A stretch of 39,500 nucleotides of DNA from Nodularia spumigena CCY9414 (lineage in GTDB: Bacteria; Cyanobacteriota; Cyanobacteriia; Cyanobacteriales; Nostocaceae), in the NCBI RefSeq assembly GCF_000340565.2, contig NZ_CP007203.1, positions 3,581,541-3,621,040 of the forward strand, written 5' to 3'. Below, in pieces: positions 5,307 to 37,119 of this stretch. Numbering within the stretch: position 1 is the first letter of the stretch; each line of letters opens with the position of its first letter. A program made the translations under genes and the position numbers. Under the pieces are notes generated by a model that was given only the letters and a program-made list of their open reading frames with translations, was not told the origin of the DNA and did not search any database.

Positions 5307-8300
5307 TCAACCTGTATTTCTCATCCCAGCCGCAATACCGTTAATCGTTAACAGTGCGCCTCGCAGTAACTCACCTTTGCTGTAACGCGAATGAATTACA
5401 CCAGAAGTAGCAGTAATATTACGGGACTGCCGCAAGCGTTTGAGTAAGGAAACTTGGATAAATCCTAAAGGTACAATTGTCCCATTACGTAACTGTACTG
5501 AACGTTGTAAAACAGGATCACCATCCAAAAGCCGAGTGTTACCAGTAATTTTTAACACTAAATCCCTGGTAAGATAAAATTCGTCAGCAATTTGCTGAAA
5601 AACTTTTTCTAGTCGGGCTTGATCTTCAGGATTACCCAACTCTTGGACGTAGTGATGTGCCATTTGCATATCTACTTTGGCTAGGGTCATTTCTGCCTTG
5701 GAAATTACCATTTTGAAAAATGGCCACTTGAGATAAAAGTAGCGTAACAATTTCAGGTGTTCTTCTGATTCTTCTTCTTCATCCAAAAATCCCTGTAAAG
5801 CTGTGCCGATACCATACCAAGAAGGCAGCAAAAACCGGGTTTGTGTCCAGCTAAATACCCAAGGAATAGCTCGTAAACTGCTTAAATCTTTCTTTCCCGA
5901 TGGACGTCGCGCTGGACGAGAACTAATTTGCAACTGGCTAATTTCTTCAATGGGGGTAACTTGGTGGAAAAAGTCGATAAAATCTGGCTGCTCGTAAATC
6001 AAATTGCGATAATGTTGACGCGATCGCACTGCTAATTCTTCCATAATCTCATTCCAAGGTTCAATATCATCAAACCCTGTACGTAATAAACTAGCTTGAA
6101 TTACAGCCGTAGTAATGGTTTCCAAATTATACAGAGCTAAATCCAGCAAAGAGTATTTAGAAGCTAATACTTCCCCTTGTTCAGTAATCTTGATGCGCCC
6201 ATTAATACTGTGTCCTGGTTGAGCCAAAATCGCCTCATAAGCTGGACCGCCACCTCGTCCCACAGAACCCCCGCGTCCGTGGAAAATCCGCAAACTCAGA
6301 CCATATCCTTCCGCGATTGTCTGGAGTGATTTTTGGGCTTTATGAATTTCCCAGTTGCTACTTAAAAAACCAGAGTCTTTATTGCTGTCAGAATACCCCA
6401 GCATCACTTCTTGTAAGTTAGGGGTGAGGGGAGAAGCCGTAGTGGGGACAATCGGCAATGAAGAGCCTTCTTGCTGAATGGCTTTGAGTGCTTCATAACC
6501 ACCTGCTAATAAAGCTCGATATAACGGGAGTTCAAATAGCTGCCGCATGACGCTTCTAGAGCGTTGTAGGTCTTCTACCGTCTCAAATAAGGGGACAACC
6601 TGAATAGTCCCTACAGCCACCACTGGGTCAAACAGTCGGGATTCTTTGGCTAAGAGCAAAACTTCCAAGACATCGCTAACTTCGCGGCACATACTAATAA
6701 TGTAAGTTTGGCAGATGTTGACACCAAACTCTTGCTGTAGCGATCGCAATATCCGGAAAGTTTCAATTACATCATTGGTTTTTTCCGAAAATGGCAATTC
6801 TGCCGGAATTAATGGGCGACGGGTTTGCAGTTCCCCAGTTAGCCAAGCCACTCGCTGTTCTTCCGATAGCTCGTTATAGGATTGGGGTAAGACTTGCAGA
6901 TATTCCAGAATCTCATTTAAAGCATCAGAGTGTCGCGTTGATTCTTGGCGGATATCCAACTGAGTCAAGTTAAAGTCAAAAATTTCGACTTGACAAATCA
7001 GAGTTTCTAACTCCCGACAACTTAAACCAGTTTCGGTCAAGTTACGTTCAATTAACCGCAGTTCGGCTAAAAACTCCGACCCCGAACGATACATGGGGGA
7101 GTCTTCCTTGGGTGATTTTTCGCGGTTATACAAGGCTACATTGCGATCGCGGGTATTTTCCAACCGCCTCAGCACATAAGCCAATTTCAAACGATAGGGT
7201 TCTTGGCGATAACGCAGCGCCAGCGCATCGTACACATCACCTAACTGCGACTGATCCATCTCTAAAGATTCCAGCAGTTCTGGTAAGACATCGCTCCAGT
7301 GCATCGATACACTCAATAATTCAATCAGCTGCTTCACTGATTTTATATATCGTTCCAGTACCATTTTACGCTGATAGCACGCTGTCTGCCAGGTGATTTC
7401 TGGTGTAACCGATGGATTACCATCACGATCTGAACCTACCCACGAGCCAAAAGAGCAAAAGTTTTTATGTGGAGGTTCTAGCCAAGTGAATGTTTTTCCT
7501 AGAGCATATTTCAAGCGCTTGTAGAGTTGAGGAATGCCATCAAATAACACTTCTTGGAAATAATGTAAGGCATAATCAACTTCATCCAGCACCGTGGGTT
7601 TGAACTGGTGGAGTTCATCTGTCCGCCACCACAGGCGAATTTCTTCGAGCAATTGTTCTCGCAAGTCTGCTGCTTCCCAAGGATATCCTCCCAAGGTGCT
7701 TTCAGTGCGGTTTTCCGCCACATCCAATTTTTGCAGAAGATTTACCACCTGTCTTTGTTTATCGCGGATAGTGTGACGAACTATTTCTGTCGGGTGGGCT
7801 GTAAAGACTAAACGCACATCCAGGTGTGAAATCAGCCGTTGAATTTGCTGCGGTGGTACATTCAGCTTGAATAAATGGGGAAACAAAGTCGCAAAAGTAC
7901 CTTTTTGTTTTCCTGTGGATTTGGTAACCCAACTTGTTGTTGTAGAGTGATTAATCGCCTCTGTACAAGTTTCTATGCCTTTGTTAACAATGGCATCATC
8001 TTCATTTTGGTTAGAGGAGTAGGTAGCGTTTGATAACGTCTCCTCCTGAATTACCGTTTCTGCTTCCCCTTCTGAATAGCGGGTTAATTGCTGACGTTGT
8101 TCATATTCCTGCTCTATGATATTAATCAACTGGAAATACAACGCAAAGGCACGAGCTGCTCGAATTGCCTCGTTGATGTTCAGTTGTTCAATCAACTTAA
8201 CGGCAGATGCGGCTTGATCGTTTCTTGCTTGTCCTTCTGGCGAACACAAATCGCGCAATTGTCGCAATAAATCTACCATTGTTTGACCGCATTCTTGCCG

Positions 8301-8411
8301 CAGTACAGATTCCCACAATTCCTCCACTACTTGAAGACGATGACGCAAAAATAATTCCGACGCAGGGTAGAAATTCAACCCATGAGACAAACTGTATAAA
8401 AGAGAACCCAT
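5307..8411 (-). CDS. ppc: Phosphoenolpyruvate carboxylase
   Basis: The enzyme adds bicarbonate to phosphoenolpyruvate, giving oxaloacetate for anaplerosis and for C4 acids that feed nitrogen assimilation. All signatures of the family are present: FTAHPTE with the catalytic His (about residue 206), [24 protein letters not shown], the glycine loop [14 protein letters not shown], and the invariant C-terminus MRNTG. I chose ATG at 8411, giving MGSLLYSLS as in Nostoc-type enzymes, for a 1034-residue protein. The frame extends upstream to 8477 (MHRRDESRL), which lacks family resemblance. As in other bacterial enzymes, no plant-type N-terminal phosphorylation serine motif is seen. The region after residue 115 that varies among cyanobacteria is a polar linker here. 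Confidence 0.97.
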
Positions 8412-8530
8412 AATTTCTGCTCTTGTAAGCTGATTACTGTTTACATCGTAGAGACGCGATTCATCCCGTCTGTGCAAGGCAATTAATCTCAGGGTAAAAC
8501 CATGAGTATTTTAGGTTTTAAATATATTTT

Positions 8531-8788
8531 TTAACCTCTTTCCCCGCTTTTGGCGCTTGTATGCAAAGTGTTGTCCTCTGGGAACGGGAGAATTGGTAGG
8601 CGATCGCCTCGAAATAATTCTTCACTGGCTTGCCCCATAGATTGTAGGGCTTTTACTGCGGTTTTTTCTGTGGTTAGCAGAAGTAGTATAGACGCTGTAC
8701 CTATTTGTAAGAGGAAAGATTGGGGAATGCTAAACAAAGGCAGATTGAATCCGGTATTGTCTGATGTTTTTTGGGTAGTAGGAGTCAT
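8531..8788 (-). CDS. Small conserved cyanobacterial protein, unknown function (85 aa)
   Basis: I place the start at ATG 8788, giving MTPTTQKTSDNTGFNLPLF; the frame reaches 8893 but the extra 35 residues look like leader. The product has one hydrophobic stretch (SFLLQIGTASILLLL) and a soluble acidic tail with FRGDRLPILPFPEDN. The GFNLPLF to FRGDRLP pattern resembles a small protein I believe is widespread in Nostocales, but I cannot name a function. It lies upstream of ppc on the same strand, with about 120 bases between its stop and the ppc start. Confidence 0.65.
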   Translation of the reverse strand: MTPTTQKTSDNTGFNLPLFSIPQSFLLQIGTASILLLLTTEKTAVKALQSMGQASEELFRGDRLPILPFPEDNTLHTSAKSGERG

Positions 8789-9040
8789 TGCTGATTCTTG
8801 GTTTTTGGCAAATGAGTAAAACGAAACGCGCACATTCAACATCTGTGAGACTTCCAGACCTATATGTCTATCTTGGCCGATTTTGCAACCCACAAAGTAA
8901 CAAAAATGTTAAAAAAAAACTGCAAAGTGTGATAGACCTATGTTTCTAGTTTACAAGTCCAGGCACTAGGGTTTCCCAGTCCTGCGTAAAAACGCAATTA
9001 ATCGCGTCTGTAGAAGAAAGTGCTGAGTTCATGTTTGATT

Positions 9041-9118
9041 GACCAATGACCAATGATTTACCCTGAGCGTAGCCGAAGGGCTAATGACTAATGACCAATG
9101 ACCAATGACCAAAGTTAA
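9041..9118. repeat. Heptamer tandem repeats (CCAATGA type) with an inner palindrome
   Basis: Variants of gaccaatgaccaatga flank a GC-rich hairpin, ccctgagcgtagccgaaggg, at about 9061-9080. Short tandemly repeated heptamers of this kind are typical of heterocystous cyanobacterial spacers. They lie just before the start at 9125, so they are part of the leader of that gene. No spacers, so this is not CRISPR. Confidence 0.8.
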
Positions 9119-9124
9119 CTGCCC

Positions 9125-12100
9125 ATGAAAACAGTATTACTAGATAGTCAGAAATCACTAGTGCAGTGGGTAAGCCAAGCCACAGGAATCAACTCTTTTG
9201 GGGTAAAAGTCCGATTGCGGGGAAATGATCTACACATCCTATGTGAAAGTTCAGAGTTTCCTAAACGCTGGCGCACTCTGTCTGACTTGCTTCACGCACT
9301 ACAGCAAACAGATTTGGATCTTTTAACAAGTAACGAACAACCCTCAATATACCAAGTATTTGTCTATGGGCGGAAGAAAGGGGAATATCGACCCACATGG
9401 TGTCATCGGGTTTATTTAAACCAACTAGAACGGCATCTAGAACAGGTAGATATAGCCCTGGAAGACGCGGAAAAATCCACTCATGTGGGTGGGGCATTAA
9501 TTATCTCTAATGAAAGTTTGGCACGTCGGGGGGACCCCAATGCCATTGCCCGCTATCTCAGCGAAACTCTTAGTCCGTTAGGGGTATCGGTACAGGTAAA
9601 CACCAAGCAATATCAGCCCAAAGATCGCAACCAAGCAGTAGTTAATCGCCTGTGGATCTTTTGTCAGTCTAGCTATAGCCCTGATTCATCATTATTAGCT
9701 GAACCAGTAGCCCAGCAGTTACGGCATTTGAAACTGGAGGGCTACCAAGATGCAGTAATTGTTTCCCAAGTCAGTGGTGAAACAGCATCTGATTGGATGC
9801 TCAGAGTGGATCTGCGTCCCCCAGAAATGATGCTCAAGGAATGGGCTAGGTGGGGAGATGTGCAGGCGATCGCCAGGCTGTTAAGCTCGATATTGTCAGC
9901 ATCTGAAGTATCCGTACAAGCTGCTCTCAAAGAATCAACCCTACATATCTTTTGTACTCCGGCTGTTGACCCCTTAAACACTGCCCCAGCGCCAGATCAA
10001 GCCCACTGTTTAAAGATTATTTCACATCATCTCGAAGCGATCGCACCCCAAGGTATTCTCGCAGCCACTGTTTACGGACAAACAACTTCAGATCAACAAC
10101 CAGCCTGGGTTGACTGGCTAACTTTACCTGCTAAGAACCATCCAGCCCTAGCCACATTACCCCTGGAATTAGCCAGCGATGGCGATGAAGCCGCCATTAT
10201 TTTTTTACTAGAGCGCTTACTCAATGTTGATCTGGATTGGCGTTTAAAGACAGGTGGTATTCGTGTCATTCTCCTACGCAAAGGGGACTTATTGCATATT
10301 ATGTGTGATGCCCCCATTTGCCCCGCCCGCTCACAAGTAGCCCACAAAGTCACCGATTTTCTGCGCCAGTTAAAAATGCCCCGTATTGCAGGGCTGCGGG
10401 TGTACGGTCGCCGTGCTGGTAATAAAGAACCATTTTGGCATCATGGCGTAGATTTAGTACAACGCCAACGTTTGGTTCCAGAAGCCACCCCAGAATTCGC
10501 CGCTACTGCGGAATATGTGAGTGAGCTTTTAACCACTGAAAATAATCACCCAGTTTTACGTAACGATTTAACCTCAGAAGAAGTTCAAAACTTTGTTACA
10601 CAAGTCACACGACATTGGAGTAAAGACGCGATTAATCGCATCTCTACCATTAATGCGAAAAAGTGGCTCATAGAAACGCAACTATTTACAGATAGTGGTC
10701 AGTCTGTACCACAAAACTATGATAGTCAAGGGCTGAAGGTAGCTCTAGTTTGGGGGACTTTGGGTTTATTGTTGACTCTGCAAGCTGATTGGATGTTGAA
10801 TTATCTAGTTACTCGCCATAAACCAAGTTCACCACAATTAACTAATATTTCGCGCTCCTTATCCCCTGTCCCAGAGCCATCATTGAATTCTCAGTCAGAC
10901 GAGAGTGAGACAACATTGTTTAATCGCAGGTTTGGGACACAACCTCCTGAGAGTAAAGGTGTCTTTAATGATTCTGGGTTTACAGAAAGTGATGATCGCC
11001 AAGAGAAGATTTTCCGAGCCGGTCCACTCAAAGAAAGAGCTAACGCCTCGGCTATTTTATTAGCAGCACGCTCGCAAATGCCCAGTTTCAATTCTCGACA
11101 ATTAGACGAACAACTAGCATTGTATAAACAGCGAATTGCTAGCACTGGTAAAGCCGCAGATGTATTAATTATTGGTTCCTCCCGCGCCTTGAGAGGAATT
11201 GATCCGGTAGCACTTTCTCAAGCTTTAGCAAATCAGGGTTATCCCAATATTGACGTATTTAATTTTGGCATTAACGGTGCAACAGCACAAATTGTAGACT
11301 TAATTATTCGTCAGGTTCTAGAGCCATCAGAACTACCAAAACTCATTCTTTGGGCAGATGGTTCCCGCGCCTTCAATAGCAATCGGGAAGATGTCACCTT
11401 TGGGGCGATCGCAGCATCAGAGGGTTACAAACAGGTATTGCAGAAAGCATTTACAGCCGCAAACAGCGATGAATCCCAGCAAAATTCTGAAGATTCTGCT
11501 GTTCAGCCTCAAGTAGTAGCACAACCAAAAATAAACAGTTATCAAGCAGTAAACGATTGGTTAAATCAGGCATTGTCTGGCGTTTCTCTGAGCTACCCAA
11601 ATCGTGACCAGATTCAAAAAATGTTGCATAAACAATTGCTTTCATTGCCTGTATTTATACCTGCTCATATTATAGGCTCACAGACACAGTTAAACCCAGA
11701 TAATTCCGAGCTAGATCCTACCCAGCAATCAGTGGATTTTGATGGATTTTTAGCTTTATCTGTGCGTTTCAATCCTACAGAACACTATCAAAAACACCCT
11801 AAAGTTACAGGTGATTACGACAACGATTATAAAGATTTCCTGATAGAAGGTGAACAAGATTATGCCTTTGAAAAAGTTTTACAGTTTACCCAGTCTCGAA
11901 ATATTGATTTAGTGTTTATCAATATGCCTTTAACTGCCGATTATTTAGATCCAGTCCGCACGAAATATGAGCAAGTATTTCAGCAACATATGTTATCCCT
12001 AGCAACTAATCCCAAATTTATATATAGAGACTTAAGCCAACTTTGGACAAAAACCAATGATTACTTTTCTGACCCTAGTCACCTTAACCGTTTTGGAGCA

Positions 12101-29579: not shown

Positions 29580-31121
29580 TTAAGCGTCAGCACCAGAACC
29601 ATATTTCCAAGCATCAATTAAACGATGCCAATAATATTGTTGTTCAATTGGCTGATTTTTTATCCATGTTTCTAATATGGGGCTTAACCTCAATAAGCCA
29701 GTGTAAATCCCTAAATTACTATAATGCACTAGCCAATCGAGTAAACTCAGTAAACCAACTTGGGGAATGATTTTGGCAACTAATAGCGGATGAAATAAAC
29801 CAGTTTTTAACAGTGTTTGTGTCAATCCCGAAAACTGCACCACATCTTGCAAAAATGGTTTTAAGACTGGTGTACCCAGTTGTTGCATTTCCTGAAATAC
29901 CGCCTTGAGTAGTTGGTTAATTTGCTCTGGGGCGATTTTCTGATTTACTCCCACACTCATGGCTTTTTGAAATAACCAGGTAACTGTCAAATTTGGTTGA
30001 TAGGGTTGCAATAGGGCTAAATTTTGGGCTGATAATTGCTCGCTTTGCAGGGCTTCATGAATCCCAAATGTTAACCGCTTCAGGTGACGTACCATCGCCC
30101 CAAAGCCGCCAAAACTCAAGGGAGATTGACTACCACTGCTGTCTCCCACTGTTAACAGGCGATTCCAAGGGGTTTTGATGGGACTTTGGCGATAGCTAGG
30201 AAAGAAGCCAAACAGCGCTCTTTGAAACTGTAATTGGTTTAATTCCACACCTTGATATTCTGGTAGCAGTCGCAGATATTCTTCAAACAATGCTGCTAAA
30301 GTCAAGCGTTGTGGTTCTGCATCCATGTAGGTAAATAGATAAGTAGTTCTACCATCCTTGGCGGGGAAAGCTTCCCAAAAGTATTGACATTGATTTTCTA
30401 AGGGTGTGAAGGAAAATAACAAGTCGCCAGAGGTGTTTTCTGGAAACCCTTGGGCGCAACTTCCCACTACTAAGCACAAAGCGTCTGGTTTTTTACCTTG
30501 GCGTGCTTGACGGGTGATGGGAGAAAAGTTACCCATTGCGTCGATTAATAATCTAGTTTTGTATTGGTTATTGACTATGATTCCTTCTGGATGAATGATT
30601 GCTTCTGTGAAGGGTGTATTTTCTAATAACTTTCCCCCAGCAGCGAGAAATCGGGTTTTTAATGTCTCTAGGAGATAAATTGGATCTACGCCGATATTTA
30701 AGACATCTTCTACCCATATTTCTGCACCACCAGCAAAACTGACTCGTGCGGGGTTATATTTAGTTGCGATCGCTTGCTGTAATTCTTCAATACTCAGCAA
30801 GTTTAATTCTACAAATACTTCTAATTCTGGGCGAGAAATATTCCACTCTTGTTCTCTCCCCCGTAAAATTCCCCGTTCCATTAAGGCTACCCGCAGCCCT
30901 TTCACCGCTAAGGCGCAAGCAATTAAAATGCCTAAAGTCCCACCACAGACGATGACATCCCAGTCTACAGCGTCTAATGGTTGCTGACTTTCTTTAACTA
31001 CTGTGGGGATTGGGGCGGTATTTTCTCTGATCGATTCTAGCAGGCGATCGCCTTGACGCAAACCTCCCAGAACATCGCCTGGTAGTTGAGAGAGAATTTT
31101 TTCAGTTAACGATGGGGACAT
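29580..31121 (-). CDS. cruP: CruP-type FAD-dependent oxidoreductase (lycopene cyclase paralogue)
   Basis: The 513-residue protein has an N-terminal FAD-binding fold (VDWDVIVCGGTLGILIACALAVKGLRVALMERG, about 52-84) and motifs I associate with CruP: RGREQEWNISRPELEVF, YNPARVSF, DVLNIGVDPIYLLETL, and the second FAD segment RLLTVGDSSGSQSPLSFGGFG. CruP is a paralogue of the lycopene cyclase CruA in cyanobacteria and plant plastids; its own reaction is less settled and it has been linked to limiting oxidative damage. The length fits CruP rather than the longer CruA. It is divergent from the lipoxygenase gene across a 480-base gap. Confidence 0.8.
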   Translation of the reverse strand: MSPSLTEKILSQLPGDVLGGLRQGDRLLESIRENTAPIPTVVKESQQPLDAVDWDVIVCGGTLGILIACALAVKGLRVALMERGILRGREQEWNISRPELEVFVELNLLSIEELQQAIATKYNPARVSFAGGAEIWVEDVLNIGVDPIYLLETLKTRFLAAGGKLLENTPFTEAIIHPEGIIVNNQYKTRLLIDAMGNFSPITRQARQGKKPDALCLVVGSCAQGFPENTSGDLLFSFTPLENQCQYFWEAFPAKDGRTTYLFTYMDAEPQRLTLAALFEEYLRLLPEYQGVELNQLQFQRALFGFFPSYRQSPIKTPWNRLLTVGDSSGSQSPLSFGGFGAMVRHLKRLTFGIHEALQSEQLSAQNLALLQPYQPNLTVTWLFQKAMSVGVNQKIAPEQINQLLKAVFQEMQQLGTPVLKPFLQDVVQFSGLTQTLLKTGLFHPLLVAKIIPQVGLLSLLDWLVHYSNLGIYTGLLRLSPILETWIKNQPIEQQYYWHRLIDAWKYGSGADA

Positions 31122-31603: not shown

Positions 31604-33493
31604 ATGACTACTTCATCACCAGATAATTCCCGCAGTCTCCCCATCACCCAGAACTTGGAGTTAGTGAGGCAGGAATATCAATATAACTATACCCATATTC
31701 CACCTATTCCTATGGTGAATCAGCTTCCTAATCAGGAAAACTTCACTACTAGATGGACTTTTTTATTAGCCCAGCAGTTACGGGAGATTTTCATTAATAC
31801 TCTGATCACTAACCGAGGCGATCGCAGTTCCAAATCGGTTCGTGATCAAGTCAAAAGGTTTATTTTAGAAGCCTTGTTCAAGGGGGCTATACCAGCCAAA
31901 GTAAGTGTGATTGCGAGACTTTTCCAAATTATTCCCCAGTTTCTCATTCAAGGAATATCTAAAGATTTTCACGAACTAGATGATCTGTTTTTTTCCCTTT
32001 TCAAAACCAACGGACTGTTAATATTCAGAGATTCTCTGAATCGAATTACAGCCCTTTTAGATAAAGGCCATCCCACAGGTCATGTGAATAGTTTAAAGGA
32101 CTACCAAAAGTTATTTACCACAATTGAATTACCAGCGATCGCCAAAACTTTCGATCAAGATCAAGTCTTTGCCTATATGCAAGTCGCCGGCTACAATCCC
32201 CTAGTAATCAAGCGGGTAAAAAGTCCAGGCGCTAACTTCCCAGTTGAAGATACACATTACCAAGCAGTAATGGGGAGTGATGATTCATTAGCAGCCGCAG
32301 GACAAGAAGGACGGCTATACCTAGCAGACTATCAAATTTTAGACGGTGCTATCAACGGTATATATCTAAATTACCAAAAGTATGCCTATGCTCCCCTAGC
32401 GCTGTTTGCCATCCCCAAAAACTCAGACCCAAATCGTCTACTGCGCCCCATAGCTATTCAATGTGGTCAAACTCCTGGAGCCGATTATCCCATCATTACC
32501 CCCAATTCCGGCAAATACGCCTGGCTATTTGCCAAAACCATTGTCCACATAGCAGATGGCAACTTTCATGAAGCTGTCAGTCACCTAGCCCGAACGCACC
32601 TATTCGTTGGTGTCTTTGTCATCGCCACCCATCGGCAATTGTCCCCCAGCCATCCCCTCAGCCTCCTACTGCGTCCCCATTTTGAAGGCACTTTAGCGAT
32701 TAACAATGCCGCCCAAGAAGTTTTGATTGCTCCTGGCGGCGGAGTTGATATATTGCTTTCATCGACAATTGATAACTCTCGGATTTTAGCAGTGCGCGGT
32801 TTGCAAAGCTATAGTTTCAATGAAGCTATGTTGCCAAACCAACTCAAACAACGAGGTGTTGATGATCCTGAACTACTGCCTGTTTATCCTTACCGGGATG
32901 ATGCATTACTAATTTGGAACGCCATTCATCAATGGGTTTCCGACTACCTGAGCCTTTACTACCCTACAGATAAAGATATTCAAAATGATACTGCTTTGCA
33001 AGCATGGGCAGCCGAAGCCAAAGCTGACAATGGTGGACGTGTACCTGATTTTGGTGAAAATGGAGGTATTCAGACACTAGACTACCTAGTTGATGCTGCT
33101 ACCCTGATTATTTTTACAGCCAGCGCCCAACACGCTGCGGTTAACTTCCCCCAAAAAGATTTGATGAGTTATGCCCCTGCTTTTCCCTTAGCAGGATATG
33201 TATCCGCCTCCATCAACGGAGAAGTTAGTGAGCAAGACTACCTGAATTTACTCCCACCTTTGGAGCAAGCGCAACAGCAATTTAACTTGCTCAGTTTACT
33301 AGGGTCTATATATTACAACCAGCTTGGTGAATATCCAAAATCACACTTTGCTAACCCCAAGGTACAAATCTTGTTACAGAAGTTCCAAAGCCGTCTTCAG
33401 CAAATTGAAATTACGATCAATCAGCGCAATTTGCACCGCCCAACTTACGAATATCTACTTCCTTCTAAAATCCCTCAGAGCATTAATATTTGA
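31604..33493 (+). CDS. Lipoxygenase
   Basis: Lipoxygenases add O2 to polyunsaturated fatty acids to give hydroperoxides, using a single non-heme iron. The start ATG 31604 (MTTSSPDNSRS) sits 5 bases after GAGGAG. The 629-residue protein has the full C-terminal catalytic domain and no PLAT domain. The iron ligands are visible: the two histidines of SHLARTHLF (H327, H332), H510 and N514 in SAQHAAVNF, and the C-terminal isoleucine in QSINI-stop. Other family marks are ATHRQLSPSHPLSLLLRPHF, AINNAAQEVLIAPGG and YPYRDDALLIWNAI. The residue that sets product stereochemistry in other family members (Ala or Gly) appears to be Thr388 here, by my hand alignment. It leads a three-gene cassette with a P450-like gene 51 bases downstream. 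Confidence 0.95.
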   Translation: MTTSSPDNSRSLPITQNLELVRQEYQYNYTHIPPIPMVNQLPNQENFTTRWTFLLAQQLREIFINTLITNRGDRSSKSVRDQVKRFILEALFKGAIPAKVSVIARLFQIIPQFLIQGISKDFHELDDLFFSLFKTNGLLIFRDSLNRITALLDKGHPTGHVNSLKDYQKLFTTIELPAIAKTFDQDQVFAYMQVAGYNPLVIKRVKSPGANFPVEDTHYQAVMGSDDSLAAAGQEGRLYLADYQILDGAINGIYLNYQKYAYAPLALFAIPKNSDPNRLLRPIAIQCGQTPGADYPIITPNSGKYAWLFAKTIVHIADGNFHEAVSHLARTHLFVGVFVIATHRQLSPSHPLSLLLRPHFEGTLAINNAAQEVLIAPGGGVDILLSSTIDNSRILAVRGLQSYSFNEAMLPNQLKQRGVDDPELLPVYPYRDDALLIWNAIHQWVSDYLSLYYPTDKDIQNDTALQAWAAEAKADNGGRVPDFGENGGIQTLDYLVDAATLIIFTASAQHAAVNFPQKDLMSYAPAFPLAGYVSASINGEVSEQDYLNLLPPLEQAQQQFNLLSLLGSIYYNQLGEYPKSHFANPKVQILLQKFQSRLQQIEITINQRNLHRPTYEYLLPSKIPQSINI

Positions 33494-33544
33494 AGTTCAT
33501 TTTTTTGGTAAATACCCCTCAAACAATACTTTGTAGGGGATGCA

Positions 33545-34924
33545 ATGTGTTTATTAAAGCTCAACCCACAAGTGAAAATTATGGCAATTCCTGAAATAGC
33601 TAAAAATCATCAGCGTCAAATTCTGCTGTCGCGTCTGCTCGCCAAATTTGGCTATAACACTAAAATTGGTAAGCTGCTCCGCTTAATTGCTTACTATAGC
33701 GAAGCTGTGGTCATGCTCAATGCTTGGAAAGAGTTTCTTTACACCCGCAAAAAACATATTGGAGACAAATATTTTGCGGTAGACCAAGCAATTATGCATT
33801 CTACTCACTCCCAGGTGCAAGAACTGATGCAAGTCGAGCCGCAACTACGGGGAAATGATTTAGGCATTATTAGAATCTTAGCTCCTAGCTACTTGCTGAA
33901 CAATCCCCTCAGCCTGGGAATGAACGGTAATGAACACACAGGAGTTCGTGCGCTGTTTTTGCACGCCTTGCCAAATCCATCTGTAGAGGTAGACTTATTA
34001 GGGGATTTAGTTAATCAACGTTTGTTAAAAGCTGCCCAACAAGGGCAAATACACATCGGTAACGACTTACCTCAGATGATGCTGTGGATTTTGCACCAAG
34101 TTGTTTTTCAGATTTCATTATCTGACAAAGAAATTACGGCATCAAATACTTACATTAAAAGTCTACCGCTTGCATCCTTGCCCAATTTTATCAGCAAATA
34201 TCTTTTGTCTTTCAGAACTGCACCGAGCATTAAGCATCGCCAAAGTTTAATCAAGAAATACAAACAATCTCCCAGATGGGCATCTTATCTGGAAATCGCT
34301 GCCCAGTATCAATTGAATGAACACCAAATCGCTAACAGCCTATTTGATATGATTCACATTGCCGGAACTGCTGGCACAAGTGCGCTTTTAGGATCTGTAA
34401 TTGGTGTTTTGTGTCTGGATAGCACTTTAAGAACTGAGGTTATATCTGAGGTTAATACTGTTTGGAATGGACAGGGAACACCCAACGCTTCTGCTTTAGA
34501 ACAGTCTACACTGCTCAATAAAGTAATTTTAGAAACGGCTCGTCTTTATCCACCTGTGCGATTTGTCAGCCAACTTAGCACCGAGTCTGGTGAAGTGGAA
34601 ATTGGAGAACAGCGATGTCCATTCCAAAAAGGTACTCGGTTGCTTGGTTCTATTTTCACAGCTAATCGAGATGCGAACAGATACACAAATCCCGATGATT
34701 TTGACGTGACGCGAGATTTTTCTGATATCTTATCTTGGAACAGCAAGGGGCATGAGCGAGCCTGTCCGGGGAGAGGTTTATCTATTGGTTTAATCAAGAT
34801 ATTCTGTCTGTATCTTTTCCAGAACTATCAATGGGAATCATCTACACCAGTTAAATGGGATTTTGCGAAAGTAACTGCTGTTACTCCTAATGATTTAGTG
34901 TTACAAGGTTTTGCTCAAAAGTAA
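33545..34924 (+). CDS. Atypical cytochrome P450, probable fatty-acid hydroperoxide-metabolising enzyme
   Basis: The 459-residue protein has the K-helix ExxR motif (LETARLYPPVRF, E330 and R333) and a heme-loop cysteine, Cys407 in KGHERACPGRGLSIG. The I-helix reads MIHIAGTAGTSALLG (about 269-283): the acid and alcohol of the usual (A/G)GxDT motif are Ala and Gly. That pair delivers protons for O2 activation, and it is also missing in CYP74-type enzymes, which rearrange hydroperoxides without O2 or a reductase. Directly following a lipoxygenase, this suggests an allene oxide synthase, hydroperoxide lyase or epoxyalcohol synthase-like role. The start at 33545 follows AGGGG by 6 bases; Met13 at 33581 is an alternative. 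No membrane anchor is seen. A plain P450 with a degenerate I-helix is the main alternative. Confidence 0.85.
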   Translation: MCLLKLNPQVKIMAIPEIAKNHQRQILLSRLLAKFGYNTKIGKLLRLIAYYSEAVVMLNAWKEFLYTRKKHIGDKYFAVDQAIMHSTHSQVQELMQVEPQLRGNDLGIIRILAPSYLLNNPLSLGMNGNEHTGVRALFLHALPNPSVEVDLLGDLVNQRLLKAAQQGQIHIGNDLPQMMLWILHQVVFQISLSDKEITASNTYIKSLPLASLPNFISKYLLSFRTAPSIKHRQSLIKKYKQSPRWASYLEIAAQYQLNEHQIANSLFDMIHIAGTAGTSALLGSVIGVLCLDSTLRTEVISEVNTVWNGQGTPNASALEQSTLLNKVILETARLYPPVRFVSQLSTESGEVEIGEQRCPFQKGTRLLGSIFTANRDANRYTNPDDFDVTRDFSDILSWNSKGHERACPGRGLSIGLIKIFCLYLFQNYQWESSTPVKWDFAKVTAVTPNDLVLQGFAQK

Positions 34925-34930
34925 CCACAG

Positions 34931-35035
34931 AAGAGGAAAGGGGGCAGGGGGCAGGGGAGAAGTAGTCAAGCAGAGATAAGTGCTATTTGGTTTCAAATTT
35001 TCCTTTGCTCCCTGCTGGCCGCTGCTCTGCCTCTT
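34931..35035. repeat. Interspersed GC-rich-ended repeat, copy 3, short form
   Basis: It has the same ends as copies 1 and 2 (AAGAGG and CCTCTT), with the arms aaagggggcagggggcaggg and tttgctccctgctggccgct, but lacks the attatttct core. It starts 7 bases after the P450 stop codon, in the spacer before the third cassette gene. Confidence 0.65.
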
Positions 35036-35113
35036 TAATCTCCCTTGGCTCTTTTTCAAGCTTTTAGTAGGAAATTATATCAATTTAGTTATTACCAAAA
35101 GAGGAAATAGTTA

Positions 35114-35674
35114 ATGTCTAAAACAATTGAGAAAAAGCAACTTGAAAATATTGCTACCTGGATGAAACCGATTGAACAAACAAATTTACCAACTGCGTTA
35201 AAGGGTGTTTTCTTTATGGATGGTAATCCGCTTCCAGATGATTGCATTACGATGTACAACGCAGAATGGGACACGCAGCAGCTAACCTTGGTTCTACCTG
35301 TTTTTGCACCGGTGCAATGGACTTTTCACAGTTCAATTGGAGGGTGGTTTTTACTTCGTGCTGTGCAGTTCACGCAGTTAACATACAAAATTCAGTTTGA
35401 AGATGAGAGTTTGAGGCGATCGCACATTATCCCCTTTGTATTGGGGTGGCGAATTCCCAAGTGGCTCTTTAATGCCACAATGAACCAAGATAAAAACTCT
35501 CACAATGGAGATATTTGGCAACGGGAAAACCTTTGGTTGAGCCTAATTCCCCAGTTTGGTAATTATACTCTGCGTCGCATTGTCGATGAAGATGGTCGTT
35601 ATACTCCCGCCTTCAATAACATGATCACCAAGGTTGCAAACGAGTGTTTGGTGATTGGGCGAAATTCAAAATAA
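35114..35674 (+). CDS. Unknown protein, third gene of the lipoxygenase-P450 cassette (186 aa)
   Basis: I do not recognise the family. The start is well supported, with GAGGAAA about 6 bases upstream of ATG 35114. The 186-residue product has no signal peptide. It contains hydrophobic strands (LTLVLPVFAPVQWTF, GWFLLRAVQF), aromatic-rich stretches (WTFHSSIGGWFLL, IPKWLFNATM) and a charged linker (NQDKNSHNGDIWQ). The strand-rich pattern with an amphipathic middle would suit a small lipid-binding or lipocalin-like fold, but this is only inference. It follows the P450 on the same strand, separated by about 190 bases that hold a repeat, so it may be co-transcribed. Confidence 0.8.
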   Translation: MSKTIEKKQLENIATWMKPIEQTNLPTALKGVFFMDGNPLPDDCITMYNAEWDTQQLTLVLPVFAPVQWTFHSSIGGWFLLRAVQFTQLTYKIQFEDESLRRSHIIPFVLGWRIPKWLFNATMNQDKNSHNGDIWQRENLWLSLIPQFGNYTLRRIVDEDGRYTPAFNNMITKVANECLVIGRNSK

Positions 35675-36027: not shown

Positions 36028-37119
36028 TTGAGGGGGCGACAAAGAAGTTAAAGAGGCTGCTGTATAAGCATCATAGCCATCACCCCCTGCTGATAAAATG
36101 CCTGCTTATTGCGAACGGCAGCCATCATTTCCAAGACCAAATCCTGACACCCATTCAGCGAAATTATCCAATTGTATCCGTATAAGCCTATCCAGAAAGC
36201 ACTATGTCTTTTTCTGTTTCTGTTCAAATCACTTGGACGACAGACATAAGATTGTTGTCTAGAAAATTGAGTTTTTTGACCTTGTAACCATGCAGAAGTC
36301 ATTGCTATAGCAATTAATAAAATCAGACGGACAAGCCTATCAGGAGAAGCTTGAGAACCTTCTAGATTATAGCCACCAGTTTTACAGTCTTTAAACATAG
36401 CCTCAATCCCAAAACGTTGACCATATATTTTGACAGTCGTTGATACATCTGTCAGATTAGTTGATAAATACCAAGGCTCTTTCTCTTGTTTGCCACGATA
36501 TTTTCGTTTCCAATAAACTGCTAAATTACAACGACCAAACCCTTTATTTTGTGTGAGATTGACATCAGGATAAAATCGGCGGTCACCGGGAGAAAGTGGA
36601 ATCGTATGTAGCGGTTGAAAATCTTGCCTTTTTTTCCGAAAAGTAGTGTCCTTTTTTTGTCGAAAAACATACTTTAAACCTTGACGGTGCAACCAACTGG
36701 CTAATTCAATCCCATGAAATTCTCTATCCCCAATCACCACTAATTGATAATGTTTCAAGAGCCGGATTACCGTAAGTGACGACGACGGCTATTTTGTTGT
36801 ATTGGTAAAGGTATAGTAGCAGCCAATCTTTCTATTTTTACTTGTTTCTGACTTTGTAGCAACCATACCAGCATTTTTAGAGTAATTAATTGTGTACGGC
36901 TGAGGTACTTGGATAGGATTGGTTGATAGAATGAGGGTAACATTTATTTCGGGTCTTGTTAATTTGACGAGACCATTCTTTTTTACCATCAAACTGTCCC
37001 TCTTAATTAGCTGTCTAATAACCACATAGTATTGTCAATAAGAACCGTTTTTTTTGAGAGGGTCTGTTACTTCAATCCCTCTGGGAGTAATACTTTTACC
37101 ATTTTTGTCGCCCCCTCAA
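36028..37119 (-). mobile_element. Defective IS4-family element with 16-bp terminal inverted repeats
   Basis: Perfect inverted repeats, ttgagggggcgacaaa at 36028-36043 and its complement at 37104-37119, bound a 1092-base element. The transposase frame (36048-36758) holds the second catalytic Asp in VVIGDREF, the Glu region RFGIEAMFKDCKTGGYNLE and a normal C-terminus. The N-terminal half with the first Asp (DRSQW-type motif) is missing, and upstream in the same frame there is a TAG at 36789-36791. The element is therefore a non-autonomous remnant. No clear target duplication is seen. It is directly joined to an IS630 fragment at 37120. Confidence 0.8.
36048..36758 (-). pseudogene. IS4-family transposase, N-terminally truncated
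   Basis: The surviving 236 residues correspond to the C-terminal part of a protein of about 400 residues. CNLAVYWKRKYRGKQEKEPWYLSTNL, SYVCRPSDLNRNRKRHSAFWIGL and QQGVMAMMLIQQPL are typical of this transposase group in Nostoc-type genomes. The only start near the beginning is TTG at 36758, inside a conserved segment, so no working protein is expected. Confidence 0.85.

Follow-up and report, generated by a model that had tools for sequence, protein, structure and literature searches.

A 39,500-nucleotide stretch of the genome of the cyanobacterium Nodularia spumigena CCY9414 (contig NZ_CP007203.1, positions 3,581,541 to 3,621,040; hereafter, the window) carries three consecutive genes on one strand that encode a lipoxygenase (LOX), a cytochrome P450 without the acid-alcohol pair of ordinary P450 monooxygenases (type A, P450A), and a small protein predicted to form a beta-barrel. 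We found that these genes constitute a genuine unit, kept together beyond chance. The unit is likely to specify an oxylipin pathway, in which the LOX would supply a hydroperoxide, the P450 would convert it independently of dioxygen (O2), and the barrel protein would act on the product. The genes and their motifs are located as follows, in window positions.

31604..33493, + strand: LOX, 629 aa (PF00305, E-value 4.8e-62; PDB entry 4g32, 5.7e-120; five iron ligands)
33545..34924, + strand: P450A, acid-alcohol pair absent (PF00067, 8e-18)
34361..34384, + strand: P450A I-helix AGTAGTSA, with Ala276 at the acid site and Gly277 at the catalytic Thr site
34532..34543, + strand: P450A ExxR motif, E330-R333 (Glu and Arg unchanged in all 28 aligned rows)
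34763..34765, + strand: P450A heme ligand Cys407 in the loop GHERACPG (invariant in 28 of 28 rows)
35114..35674, + strand: third gene, 186 aa, predicted beta-barrel protein and member of the unit

The LOX is intact. Its PF00305 match extended over residues 120-611 with 210.9 bits against a cut-off of 23.6, and an alignment to the 15S-LOX from Pseudomonas aeruginosa (41% identity in aligned columns) indicated that the iron ligands H327, H332, H510, N514 and the C-terminal I629 are all kept. The genome gave one Pfam LOX match in total, which is this LOX. A fusion of a catalase-type allene oxide synthase (AOS) with LOX was ruled out, PF00305 being the sole domain in the protein. NpLOX1 from Nostoc punctiforme is reportedly a 13-lipoxygenase (a 2007 paper). 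With its 630 aa, NpLOX1 belongs, compared by length only, to the length class of the window LOX and its relatives (excerpt of PMC10177866).

P450A displays the features of the P450 superfamily, with a PF00067 match that exceeds the cut-off (best stretch confined to residues 231-432), the ExxR motif and the heme Cys. The acid-alcohol pair of canonical monooxygenases is missing. Residues 273-280 read AGTAGTSA, so that Ala276-Gly277 occupies the two sites, and AGTAGT was present without variation in all 28 rows of a P450A alignment, which correspond to 27 distinct genes as one gene was entered twice. The true start is probably an inner ATG at 33581 (447 aa), because the frame begins there in many relatives. 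These results agree with a first-pass annotation of the stretch, which had recognized a complete LOX gene, a gap of 51 bases to the P450 ATG at 33545, the loss of the acid-alcohol pair in a P450 keeping ExxR and the heme Cys, an unrecognized third gene on the same strand, and a LOX and P450 that are separate, unlike the catalase-type fusions.

The same annotation had regarded the P450 as CYP74-like and had proposed a profile search. The search upheld membership in the general P450 family, but did not support kinship with CYP74. Among the 32 PDB matches of the P450A profile, CYP74A2 ranked 8th (7.4e-5), and the top match was an unrelated P450 (1.1e-8). The closest PDB P450 to the P450A sequence itself was distant (best 1.8e-7). 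Typical features of the CYP74 clan are an I-helix Asn and a nine-residue insertion ahead of the heme Cys (excerpts of PMC8124189). Instead of the Asn in the I-helix groove, P450A has AGTAGT and a second LOX-linked family described below, P450B, has AGLQGP, while residues 392-425 of P450A, around C407, are uninterrupted in comparison with ordinary P450s. An ERR triad (E330, R333, R390) and a PPV sequence (P336-P337-V338) are found in the window P450; they are widespread among other P450s, and PPV is absent from P450B. No CYP74 appeared among the 50 fold matches listed for P450A, whose model was poor, a result that does not exclude a CYP74 fold. As the CYP74 motifs are lacking, we rejected CYP74 kinship as a label for P450A, and its likeness to CYP74 is probably functional and convergent.

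P450A was sought by scanning one genome for each of 84,980 species with a pattern-based procedure, which would miss distant relatives. This gave 22 loci, all of them cyanobacterial by record title (Nostoc, Desmonostoc, Mojavia, Tolypothrix, Calothrix, Iningainema and others). The third gene lay downstream of P450A in 22 of 22 (the copy in L058 is cut by a contig end), LOX lay upstream in 20, and the full trio was thus present in 20 of 22. Of the two loci without LOX, L059 is on a contig that begins 113 bases ahead of the P450 match, and LOX was looked for and not found in this metagenome-assembled genome; L070 has an ileS-like gene (judged by eye) at the LOX position. In a sample of 386 cyanobacterial genomes, which overlaps with the 22 loci so that the counts are not additive (contig 197 of G374 and L069 are equally long, at 66,306 bp), P450A occurred in eight, with LOX before it and the third gene after it in all eight. 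Across 28 aligned loci the order LOX-P450A-third gene was maintained on one strand throughout, with LOX present in 26. The aligned gaps measured 2-507 bases between LOX and P450A (26 loci) and 3-715 bases between P450A and the third gene (28 loci). When the window was considered together with the 22 loci, some of which are short, the next commonest neighbour occurred in only six. As only LOX, the P450 and the third gene are common to more than six of the 23 loci, the trio has been kept while its surroundings differ. The ratio of nonsynonymous to synonymous substitution rates (dN/dS), computed for the window genes against four relatives, ranged over 0.15-0.18 for LOX and the P450, and over 0.18-0.30 for the third gene.

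The linkage that the first-pass annotation had drawn from gene order and motifs was therefore confirmed by the neighbourhood survey it had called for. Two outcomes that it had named as counting against its proposal, homologs never adjoining LOX or a P450 grouping with ordinary P450s, were looked at, and neither applied to P450A. Beyond that annotation, the third gene proved to be a constant member of the unit, and P450A has both a LOX-linked divergent sister and a LOX-linked analogue in another clade.

Several loci depart from the common form. In L061 and L071, P450A is broken or misread (a stop in the former, a split in the latter, in the region near 8001-9365); LOX and the third gene are still present beside the interrupted P450A, reflecting recent decay or sequencing error. 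In genome G024 (L089 10029-12918) two tandem P450A genes, both with AGTAGT, stand between LOX and the third gene, and a formation of two products from one LOX is possible. The LOX of G042 is nested in the clade of A-type LOXs without an accompanying P450A or third gene, as if these two had been lost together. A plasmid home for the unit was rejected, as neither P450A nor the third protein had a match in a plasmid collection.

The third gene gave no match in Pfam, NCBIfam or the PDB sequences; three rows of the alignment of its proteins showed chance-level Pfam matches (best 0.058). The AlphaFold2 model of the protein, with a predicted local distance difference test score of 89.6 and a predicted template modelling score of 0.87, predicts a beta-barrel. 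In fold searches the top structural matches were nitrophorins, although weak, and the protein is weakly nearest to lipocalins. Conserved polar and aromatic residues are present, and His72 is nearly invariant. We also compared the protein with plant allene oxide cyclase (AOC). An hhalign comparison of a 31-row profile with Arabidopsis AOC2 gave a probability of 0.2% over 19 columns, and with no sequence signal and no Pfam match, kinship with plant AOC was rejected. The 50 matches listed in each of two fold searches with the third protein did not include plant AOC, which does not exclude an AOC fold.

Full-length third genes were also found without P450A in another cyanobacterial family (G039, G099, G334 and G352), where they come after P450B. 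The Pfam P450 scores of the two P450B proteins scanned were below the cut-off (0.12 and 0.26); P450B aligned with P450A at 22% identity over 393 residues (2e-9). It retains ExxR and the heme Cys, and 31 invariant positions are common to P450A and P450B. Many of these are general to P450s; they include the Gly277 at the catalytic-Thr site and a PQxR...LG stretch. In a tree of 53 P450s, P450A and P450B formed one clade (99/99) with long branches, suggesting that P450B is a divergent sister family of P450A. In the four genomes with P450B and the third gene, LOX is located elsewhere in the genome. In G149, G155 and G245, from the family Nostocaceae, P450B lies immediately ahead of a 548-aa LOX and the third gene is absent. 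One LOX subclade (100/99; 15 rows) unites the LOXs of these four and three genomes with eight from genomes without P450B; G103 has a near-copy of the P450B-linked LOX, standing alone. LOX, P450 and the third gene are thus tied to one another across differing arrangements. Two remnants were also noted. In G318 (L053, L081) the third gene is interrupted and has no P450 nearby, LOX is reduced to a broken piece, and the whole pathway may have decayed; G231 has a third-gene match of 31-32 residues only.

A further LOX subclade is followed by another P450, P450D, in G143 and G278 (L116:5722-8830 and L113:4117-7565). P450D is ordinary-looking by its PF00067 matches (2e-70 and 6e-77), and its I-helix reads AGTRNV; alignment with a plant P450 (AGHETS) places Arg at the acid site and Asn at the Thr site. 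It was present in two of the 386 genomes, adjoining LOX both times. In the tree it was placed among ordinary P450s, with nearest neighbours that were flagged as long-branch, so that LOX-linked P450s lacking the acid-alcohol pair apparently arose twice. A candidate fourth P450 partner of LOX (L109:7443-8705, L110:7351-8601) was rejected, as it weakly resembled a guanylate cyclase (5e-4, below the cut-off). The LOX of L109 and L110 has this guanylate-cyclase-like protein of 416-420 aa and a gene judged by eye to be response-regulator-like as its neighbours.

Loss of the pair was rare in the other P450s sampled. The census comprised 86 P450s from a PF00067 search that covered 40 genomes of the order and matched in 37; 30 loci were supplied by the search itself, and 56 were chosen by hand down the list. 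This sample leans to well-scoring P450s. Three (L139, L152, L167) had been cut by trimming and were unreadable. Both the acid and the Ser/Thr were kept in 80 of the 83 readable P450s; L211 and L216 retain the acid only, and L223 neither residue. This is the figure we rely on, as an earlier comparison, in which 20 of 20 ordinary P450s had the Thr column, had left out these three deviants and L218. L223 (G019:C33:84109-85332) is a further P450 without the acid-alcohol pair. Poorly scoring P450s of G213 and G386, outside the 83, have lost the acid alone and have no LOX match within 11-13 kb. At L226 and L227, two more such loci, matches to LOX, P450A, P450B and the third gene were sought and none was obtained. 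Set against the AGHETT of ordinary P450s, the I-helices read AGTAGT in P450A, AGLQGP in P450B and AGTRNV in P450D.

All 17 genomes with P450A, P450B or P450D fell within the 56 LOX-positive genomes of the 386 (hypergeometric 5e-16, uncorrected for kinship), as did the 13 third-gene genomes, 12 with full-length genes and G318 (3e-12, likewise uncorrected). The remaining 39 LOX-positive genomes had none of the three P450s. Flanking sequence of LOX, mostly 5-7 kb per side and in some cases limited by the contig, was inspected at 48 places distributed over 41 of the 55 other LOX-positive genomes, and no ordinary P450s were found in it. As the P450 profile used on these flanks detects 42 of 79 ordinary P450s, BLASTP with 12 ordinary P450s was added, and it matched type D alone. 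Linkage to LOX and loss of the O2-activating pair therefore coincide, because P450A, P450B and P450D are all LOX-associated and without the pair, and other P450s are intact in 80 of 83.

Taking into account that P450A is without the pair that protonates O2, a hydroperoxide is the likely oxidant. The O2-independent, hydroperoxide-using P450 put forward in the first-pass annotation remains the best reading. The substrate, the independence of O2, the product and the third protein's part in the pathway are inferred as follows. LOX would add O2 to a polyunsaturated fatty acid, giving a hydroperoxide. The hydroperoxide itself would serve as the oxygen donor of the P450, its O-O bond being cleaved at the heme thiolate, and rearrangement would lead to an allene oxide, an epoxyalcohol or a cleavage product. 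A P450 of this kind would work without O2 and without a reductase, and so could dispense with the acid and Thr of the proton relay. The third protein may bind the P450 product and steer its further reaction, as a cyclase in an AOC-like role, or carry it.

Two other oxidants were considered for the P450. CYP152 enzymes also lack the acid-alcohol pair, and their I-helix holds Arg-Pro. It is improbable, though, that the P450 is a peroxygenase of this type, performing hydrogen peroxide-driven hydroxylation or decarboxylation of free fatty acids with LOX as a parallel oxidizer. P450A does have weak CYP152 matches (NCBIfam, 0.036; PDB, 1.4e-4), and the I-helix Arg of P450D recalls CYP152; however, the Arg-Pro is missing in both P450A and P450B, and strict linkage to LOX would not be expected for an enzyme driven by hydrogen peroxide. 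We consider it just as improbable that the P450 is an O2-dependent monooxygenase that hydroxylates the LOX product. Such an enzyme could rely on substrate-assisted proton delivery as in P450eryF, an O2-dependent P450 without the Thr, comparable in this respect to L211 and L216 of the census, and cyanobacterial cells hold ferredoxin as an electron donor. Nevertheless, acid and Thr are both lost in P450A, P450B and P450D, and the conserved unit is without a reductase or ferredoxin gene, since nothing other than its three genes recurs in more than six of the 23 loci.

As for the third protein, an accessory role such as heme delivery or a stress protein that shares only the promoter, rather than a pathway enzyme or carrier, is unlikely but has some points in its favour: LOX-P450 pairs occur without the third gene (type C in three genomes, type D in two), the nitrophorins bind heme, and His72 is nearly invariant. 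On the other hand, the 37 fully invariant residues include no His, and the gene is retained after P450A in every scanned locus and with P450B in four of four genomes of the other family, in spite of the low identity between the two P450s.

The proposed pathway resembles the plant cascade of LOX, CYP74A AOS and AOC in combining a LOX, a P450 lacking the pair and a small barrel protein, and in its putative hydroperoxide chemistry. It differs in that the cyanobacterial P450 is devoid of the CYP74 Asn and the Cys-loop insertion, no sequence similarity links the third protein to AOC2, and the genes are clustered in a bacterium. MnHPL from Methylobacterium is also bacterial, and is listed in a figure legend of PMC10813956 as a CYP74-clan member named HPL, whereas P450A stands outside CYP74 by its motifs. 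Excerpts of PMC8124189 and PMC10813956 report CYP74-clan P450s from plants, animals, algae and Proteobacteria. Hydroperoxide chemistry in cyanobacteria is reported, in excerpts of PMC6627107, PMC8124189 and PMC11719350, for catalase-type fusions. In the catalase-related AOS-LOX fusions of cyanobacteria and coral, a heme enzyme likewise acts on LOX hydroperoxides (excerpts of PMC8124189 and PMC6627107), but the heme domain is of the catalase type and fused to LOX, in contrast to the separate P450 and small protein found here. Fungal dioxygenase-P450 fusions and the thromboxane and prostacyclin synthases cleave O-O bonds as self-sufficient P450s, and some of them lack an axial Asn (excerpt of PMC13049297). 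The same review uses thromboxane synthase and the fungal 8- and 9-AOS to illustrate that homolysis might proceed without this residue of plant AOS. These routes are eukaryotic and begin with a heme dioxygenase or cyclooxygenase rather than LOX. A survey of cyanobacterial P450s (PMC7014017) has 0 occurrences of the word lipoxygenase in its main text, and searches of an open-access library listed no title or abstract start that mentions a cyanobacterial LOX-P450 gene cluster.

LOX genes are known from bacteria, but for the most part not what becomes of the hydroperoxides that they give rise to. With a P450 and a partner protein conserved in one cluster with LOX, this can be addressed directly using three recombinant proteins. 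A cyclase role of the third protein would mean a second origin of a step thought to be plant-specific, in plant- or lichen-associated bacteria. We can speculate, while judging it rather unlikely as a whole, that the unit is an independently assembled bacterial counterpart of the plant entry route to jasmonate (LOX, AOS and AOC), in which a P450 family and a barrel-fold cyclase, both new, would provide cyclopentenone-type oxylipins in N2-fixing, often plant- or lichen-associated Nostoc, and that LOX recruited P450s lacking the pair on two or more occasions in cyanobacteria.

The genome carrying the window is a single contig of 5.46 Mb whose relatives are cyanobacteria, and the window also contains psbA and phosphoenolpyruvate carboxylase genes (named by eye) and a homocitrate synthase gene (Pfam). 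Promoter and terminator scans gave site numbers approximately equal to those in shuffled sequence. Divergent from LOX is a gene resembling FAD-dependent oxidoreductases (29580-31121, - strand; DAO 2.3e-5, below the cut-off), which is absent from the gene clusters common to at least four loci. On the other side, about 370 bases past the third gene, lies a DDE transposase open reading frame (36048-36758, - strand), immediately followed by 5S and 23S rRNA genes.

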